Positions 105 through 59,261 of a stretch of DNA of 64,000 nucleotides are shown piece by piece. The stretch is from Cristatella mucedo (taxonomy: Eukaryota > Bryozoa > Phylactolaemata > Cristatellidae), in the NCBI GenBank assembly GCA_009760855.2, contig WPIO01000067.1, positions 1,734,501-1,798,500 of the forward strand, written 5' to 3'. The notes beneath the pieces were generated by a model. It was given only the letters and a program-made list of their open reading frames with translations. It did not search any database and was not told the DNA's origin. How positions within the stretch are numbered: the first letter of the stretch is position 1; the number at the start of each line of letters is the position of its first letter. The translations under genes and the position numbers were made by a program.

Positions 105-353
105 GTAATGGTCACACGGGCGAATCCTTTCAGTGGTGGAGGCGCTGCAGGAAATGGTTCCGGCTCGATCCGAGTGAATAGCGACATACTGCTGCTGGCT
201 CTGACCAACGAGAGTAGAGCAGTGGAGCGGCTTGGCAGCGATGCCCACCCGGCGCACCTCTTGCTGAGCACTGGGAGCAGCTCTGGCAGCACGGCACTGC
301 CACCAATGCTCGGCCAGGCCGGTGGACCCGGCCAGAGGCTGAGGCTGCACAAG
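105..353 (+). CDS. + gene exon 1 (GAIN-like ectodomain)
   Basis: Acceptor ctttttgcag precedes GTA ATG GTC and donor AAG|gtgagg follows; open with no stop. The Gly/Ser-rich stretch then [14 protein letters not shown] resembles the strand-rich region that opens the GAIN domain of polycystin-1 proteins. It ends in phase 0 and joins exon 2. No counterpart was found for the - gene inside the window, so support comes from splice sites and phase only. Confidence 0.6.

Positions 354-59261: not shown

Follow-up and report, generated by a model that had tools for sequence, protein, structure and literature searches.

Two convergent polycystin-1-type genes of the bryozoan Cristatella mucedo and the intron map of their family

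In the sea urchin, the PKD1/REJ family, with the ten genes SpREJ1-10, exceeds its human counterpart in size, and its products combine REJ, GPS and PLAT domains with up to 11 transmembrane (TM) segments. In the excerpted account of this family, intron/exon numbers and lengths are little alike among the ten genes, and partial similarity is described for the pairs 3 and 4, 5 and 6, and 8 and 9 (excerpt of PMC1934368). In human, PKD1 has as its tail-to-tail neighbour TSC2, which is not a PKD1 relative (excerpt of PMC2781793); a convergent neighbour is therefore not unusual in itself. Among the matches listed in our literature searches, none was a paper that deals with two convergent PKD1 genes.

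Here we describe two polycystin-1-type genes, named A and B, that lie tail to tail in Cristatella mucedo. Like SpREJ1-10, they belong to a family that has more members than in human and is marked by REJ, GPS and PLAT domains and up to 11 predicted TM segments. Unlike the SpREJ genes, the five genes compared here show strong conservation of the intron map. We consider it very probable that A and B are old members of a multi-gene PKD1/REJ family that happen to lie tail to tail.

Gene models, domains and predicted products

The window (the whole stretch of DNA analysed, 64,000 nucleotides; C634:1734501-1798500) comes from a genome of 572 Mb in 688 contigs. A and B were found by comparing the open frames of its two halves with each other. 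Each is described by a predicted 17-exon model of the C-terminal half of a polycystin-1-type protein, A on the + strand (1873-27016) and B on the - strand (59261-35806), in convergent order. Exon ends were set by hand, using simple splice-site scores and with the A-B homology in view, so that the exact agreement of splice sites between the genes is partly built in; the existence of introns at shared positions is not. The internal exon ends are AG and GT throughout both models, and two acceptors of A (18862 and 24046) have poor splice-site scores. The features are listed below.

Gene A (+ strand)
1873..2185, +, exon 1 of the model, GAIN region; homologous to B 59120-58833 (E 1e-18)
4121..4221, +, exon 2, GAIN
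4604..4707, +, exon 3, GPS first part
9536..9698, +, exon 4, GPS second part; CICNYKQ, without cleavage tripeptide
11517..11919, +, exon 5, 403 nt, TM1 and PLAT N-part
12030..12162, +, exon 6, 133 nt, PLAT C-part
12772..13023, +, exon 7
13122..13284, +, exon 8
18862..19142, +, exon 9, 281 nt; weak acceptor
19229..19455, +, exon 10
20396..20582, +, exon 11
21828..21993, +, exon 12
22216..22620, +, exon 13, 405 nt, polycystin/TOP domain; Polycystin_dom locus L030
24046..24209, +, exon 14; weak acceptor
25103..25258, +, exon 15
26251..26506, +, exon 16, 256 nt
26664..27016, +, exon 17 with stop codon; AATAAA at 27076

Between the genes
27017..35805, no strand, 8,789-bp stretch between the modelled stops; LINE 3' fragments and 17-bp minisatellite

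Gene B (- strand)
58831..59261, -, exon 1 of the model, GAIN region
58332..58453, -, exon 2, GAIN
55277..55431, -, exon 3, GPS first part
53775..54018, -, exon 4, GPS second part; CICNHLS; GPS Pfam match
51822..52224, -, exon 5, 403 nt, TM1 and PLAT N-part
51228..51360, -, exon 6, 133 nt, PLAT C-part
50760..51014, -, exon 7
50133..50280, -, exon 8
47525..47805, -, exon 9, 281 nt
47166..47383, -, exon 10
46446..46635, -, exon 11
46129..46306, -, exon 12
43139..43543, -, exon 13, 405 nt, polycystin/TOP domain; Polycystin_dom locus L029
41720..41880, -, exon 14
41329..41487, -, exon 15
39097..39352, -, exon 16, 256 nt
35806..36329, -, exon 17, open frame to a stop; provisional 3' end

Common to both genes are a GAIN/GPS region, TM1, a PLAT domain, a polycystin (TOP) domain and a channel region. 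The Pfam PLAT matches (A, E 6.1e-14; B, E 3.2e-13) are placed after the first TM helix, as read from the alignment to polycystin-1. Polycystin_dom and PKD_channel match A at E 2.7e-35 and 3e-33 and B at 6e-33 and 5e-24, respectively. The GPS profile matches B (E 3.8e-5, 24.6 bits for a cut-off of 22.5) and gives no match at E 0.01 in A, which has the GPS cysteines at the same places as B. Alignment to polycystin-1 and -2 predicts 11 TM segments in each protein.

Among solved structures, B matches polycystin-1 (best E 3.4e-71), polycystin-2, PKD2L1 and PKD1L3. Polycystin-1 of PDB 6a70 (chain B, in complex with polycystin-2), which we take to be the human protein, aligns with B over TM1-PLAT-TM5, the TOP domain and part of the channel, and B also resembles it in having an HLT-like GPS site; it differs from A and B in showing 31-35% identity to them over exons 5-8. 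PKD1L3 of PDB 7d7e (chain A, presumably from mouse; the matched chain has 551 aa) matches B in the TOP and channel regions and A in the TOP region. With the open-frame comparison, the Pfam matches and, for B, these structures, the two convergent polycystin-1-type C-terminal halves of the original prediction are present.

A possible further exon of A (105-353) has good sites (acceptor 3.3, donor 6.8), and no homologous partner was found for it. Nothing was found by Rfam at gathering scores or by ARAGORN with bacterial settings. Both genes extend past the window: ten non-repeat matches between their 5' parts, hand-picked among the matches listed, are all colinear. The outer frames are candidate parts of A and B: four of the ten scanned upstream of B match Pfam REJ, one of them over the cut-off (44.8 vs 25 bits), as do two of the seven upstream of A, again with one over the cut-off (31.0), and the REJ frames of both genes stand in profile order. 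PKD repeats lie farther out than REJ, in two frames of A over the cut-off and in one frame of B below it. The remaining scanned upstream frames have no Pfam match, save one B frame with an unrelated match below the cut-off. Within 70 kb on either side, searches with A and B at E 1e-5 (5,000 bases being masked in one flank) gave no other PKD1-type C-terminus.

On the model of the family, A and B would each encode a large surface protein with a REJ-related ectodomain, a GAIN/GPS region and 11 TM helices; the PLAT domain would lie inside the cell, and the channel-like end may serve as a subunit with a PKD2-type partner. The LGD of polycystin-2 aligns opposite LNK in B and LNN in A, in a stretch that we assume to be the selectivity filter (LGD of polycystin-2, LNK of B); with these residues, A and B would be likelier to join a PKD2-type channel as partner subunits than to form channels on their own.

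The two genes differ at the GPS tripeptide, which is HLS in B (CICNHLS) and YKQ, not HL[ST], in A (CICNYKQ). In polycystin-1, the HL*T tripeptide of the GPS is the site of cis-autoproteolysis, and non-cleavable mutants are described (excerpt of PMC4810088). Because of these tripeptides, we predict that B is self-cut into two associated halves and that A stays uncut.

The region between the genes

The modelled stop codons (27016 and 35806) are 8,789 bp apart, where an intergenic region of 6.4 kb had been proposed. An AATAAA stands 60 nt past the stop of A. No such signal lies within 1 kb of the modelled stop of B, the first ATTAAA being at 34778. These observations bear on the reading of the pair as a regulatory unit, in which the 3' ends overlap or a cut receptor (B) and an uncut one (A) share their expression. 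The convergent order and the GPS difference fit such a unit, but the separation of the modelled stops by 8.8 kb of DNA with repeats and the placing of the poly(A) signals argue against it, and we regard it as very unlikely; the suggested co-expression or 3' overlap is without sequence support. It is barely credible to us that the facing genes form an ancient and preserved unit, with self-cleaving B and non-cleaving A co-expressed and sharing PKD2-type partners; if it were so, the ratio of cut to uncut subunits would be set at one locus. Nothing shows a function of the facing arrangement.

A minisatellite between A and B (32832-33268) has a 17-bp unit in 25.7 copies with 99% match. LINE-type retrotransposon pieces occur at 14628-15992 (- strand), 28980-29491, 31925-32432 and 43776-44974, one of them with a reverse transcriptase match (E 1.9e-23), and LINE 3' fragments recur in the introns and between the genes. 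Inside an intron of A, 7576-7997 and 8556-8974 are direct copies of about 420 bp, 98% identical.

Likeness of A and B and the intron map

The A and B proteins are 38.9% identical (485 identities in 1248 columns of a global alignment of the models). Chance similarity is ruled out by an alignment score 77 SD above 30 shuffles. For the TM1/PLAT exon, identity is 56% in 133 aa, in keeping with the 40/68 or so predicted for PLAT. The five exon lengths proposed as equal (403, 133, 281, 405 and 256 nt) are equal in the models, and the claim of common intron positions and phases holds as well: the phase is the same at 16 of 16 introns and the alignment column at 15, the sixteenth falling in a low-complexity stretch. 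However, the equality at 281 nt (exon 9) and at 405 nt (exon 13) is reached through compensating gaps (4 vs 4 and 3 vs 3 residues, respectively) and therefore looks accidental.

Of 229 fourfold sites, 73 are identical (31.9% vs 25.5% expected from composition; permutation p 0.02), a small excess; the sites are near, but not at, full saturation. Fifteen of the 16 intron pairs are without DNA similarity at E 1e-3, and the sole match lies in a LINE stretch repeated in the window. Since the introns are kept in both genes, the copying was at the DNA level and retroposition is ruled out; together with the 38.9% identity, the near-saturated fourfold sites and the dissimilar introns, which make the duplication old, this supports the ancient, DNA-level and non-retroposed origin put forward in the original prediction. 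An assembly duplicate or a recent copy is ruled out by the same identity and fourfold sites and by introns that are unlike except for the LINE stretch.

The shared map had further been taken as pointing to an inverted duplication of the pair, A and B being strict sister copies from one inverted DNA-level event at this place. In line with that reading, the genes are adjacent and opposed, all 16 intron phases are common to both, their 5' halves are colinear too, and among the genes read only A and B agree in the exon lengths of 281 and 405 nt. Yet the map recurs elsewhere in the genome, and those two lengths owe their equality to the gaps noted above. A donor directly following the EFxxxG motif, where the TOP exon ends, was scored in 12 of the 13 spliced PKD1-type loci, A and B included (read from the codons as phase 1; the thirteenth locus, L037, lies outside the scanned stretch). 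Three paralogues on other contigs (C111a, C111b and C681b) were read over most exons, 31 in all, C681b being without its first PLAT exon. Lax thresholds gave a site in the expected phase at 20 of 20, 23 of 24 and 17 of 18 boundaries, respectively; several boundaries offered alternative candidates, and at three of them a site of a different phase scored over 2. When the exon ends of B were projected onto these three genes, being carried from alignment ends to single bases without gaps, AG was met at 28 of 31 ends and GT at 24 of 31, for backgrounds of about 6% and 5.5%; the ends that failed to match belong to exons 7 to 9 and 14.

At exon 5, A, B, C111a and C111b share a length of 403 nt; exon 6 has 133 nt in all five genes, and exon 16 has 256 nt in A, B and C111b, the one paralogue in which it was found. 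Counting against our preferred reading, 281 (exon 9) and 405 (exon 13) were not found in the three paralogues read. The map is thus not special to A and B but common to C111a, C111b and C681b; given its presence on other contigs, with the lengths 403, 133 and 256, the view that it points to an inverted duplication of this pair is not supported. The pair consists of ordinary family members, and the intron map does not carry the inverted-duplication conclusion. More generally, an exon-by-exon match of neighbouring paralogues is not by itself a mark of local duplication. A search for the GPS motif in the stretches of C111a, C111b and C681b gave no credible hit.

Under our preferred reading of A and B as old family members, one intron map would have been present in the family before A and B parted and been inherited by both, and their facing order would have come from an old duplication, or from a later inversion or move.

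Nearest relatives and the polycystin family of the genome

Identity over exons 5-17 is 53.4% for B and C111a (397/743), 50.8% for B and C111b (422/830) and 38.7% for B and A (398/1028), compared with 43.7% for A and C111a and 43.3% for A and C111b. In the same 676 columns, where a bias toward B is possible because B served as the query in finding the exons of C111 and C681, the identities are 56.2% (B-C111a), 54.0% (B-C111b), 45.9% (A-C111a), 44.8% (A-C111b) and 42.2% (A-B). Both C111 genes are thus nearer to B than A is. Gene A has a long branch in some trees, so its low identity to B may reflect speed and not branching order. In three of three quartets the split uniting A and B is the least supported, with 3 of 37 sites (with C111a and C681b), 5 of 44 (with C111b and C681b) and 10 of 47 (with C111a and C111b).

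Trees were built from the TOP exon and from sets of six, five and 11 rows, polycystin-1 of PDB 6a70 being the one PKD1-type protein from outside the genome, and A and B are sisters in none of the four best trees. The six-row tree puts A with human polycystin-1, outside B, both C111 genes and C681b (88/81); A is grouped with the C111 genes in the five-row tree (47/17) and with the C681 genes in the 11-row tree (44/0), and the remaining forks among these genes have bootstraps of 38-67. The TOP-exon tree (19 rows) joins B to human polycystin-1 at 91/84, unstarred and with long branches, and is too short to place A and B. AU tests did not reject the A+B constraint at 5% (p-AU 0.135, 0.094 and 0.105).

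Taken together, the identities, site patterns and trees speak against strict sister copies, a reading that appears disfavoured, not refuted, the AU results standing on its side; we find it improbable. Since A+B is not rejected, there is also room for an older local inverted duplication that gave rise to the A and B lineages, with B-type copies later moved to C111. That reading, which we rate as possible if rather unlikely, fits the identities, the linkage and the six-row tree, but the place of A shifts between the C111 and C681 genes at low values in the other trees, and the growth of C681 was head-to-tail, not facing. Were it true, the facing pair would be the ancestral arrangement, with A and B no longer nearest relatives.

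A Polycystin_dom profile search of the genome gave 22 matches, which we grouped into 17 loci: A and B, four on C681, three on C111, two each on C310, C77 and C550, and one each on C122 and C676. Judged from their exon ends and the TOP tree, 13 are spliced PKD1-type, one is intronless (C122) and three are PKD2-type (C676 and both C550 loci). The PKD2-type donor, placed directly after NLFSI[IV][KR] in two of these three, lies upstream of the PKD1-type donor, and the PKD2-type loci fall on one side of the TOP tree together with human PKD2 and C122 (support 92/94, unstarred). With 13 spliced PKD1-type loci in our grouping, the genome could serve for studying receptor diversification, including the apparent loss of the GPS cleavage site in one member.

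Several other loci were noted. The four PKD1-type loci of C681 (184927, 359455, 552726 and 682769; L026, L024, L027 and L031) lie head-to-tail on one strand, about 130-193 kb apart, and form a single supported clade in the TOP-exon tree (99/98). The C122 locus (C122:2169691-2170260, L023) belongs to an open frame of 860 aa and is therefore intronless there, and a same-strand PLAT match stands at C122:2172531-2172701; the class of this locus is tentative, the TOP tree having put it with a PKD2-type row on a long branch. Human PKDREJ is likewise described as intronless (excerpt of PMC1934368). Two nearly identical PKD1-type loci of C310 (2568850 and 2698177; L034 and L037), about 130 kb apart, are apparently a recent duplicate. 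The TOP exon of these C310 loci, of the third C111 locus and of the C77 loci looks split by an additional phase-2 intron. Finally, C11:3493845-3522324 has dense PLAT-domain matches on one strand and resembles a gene with many PLAT repeats.
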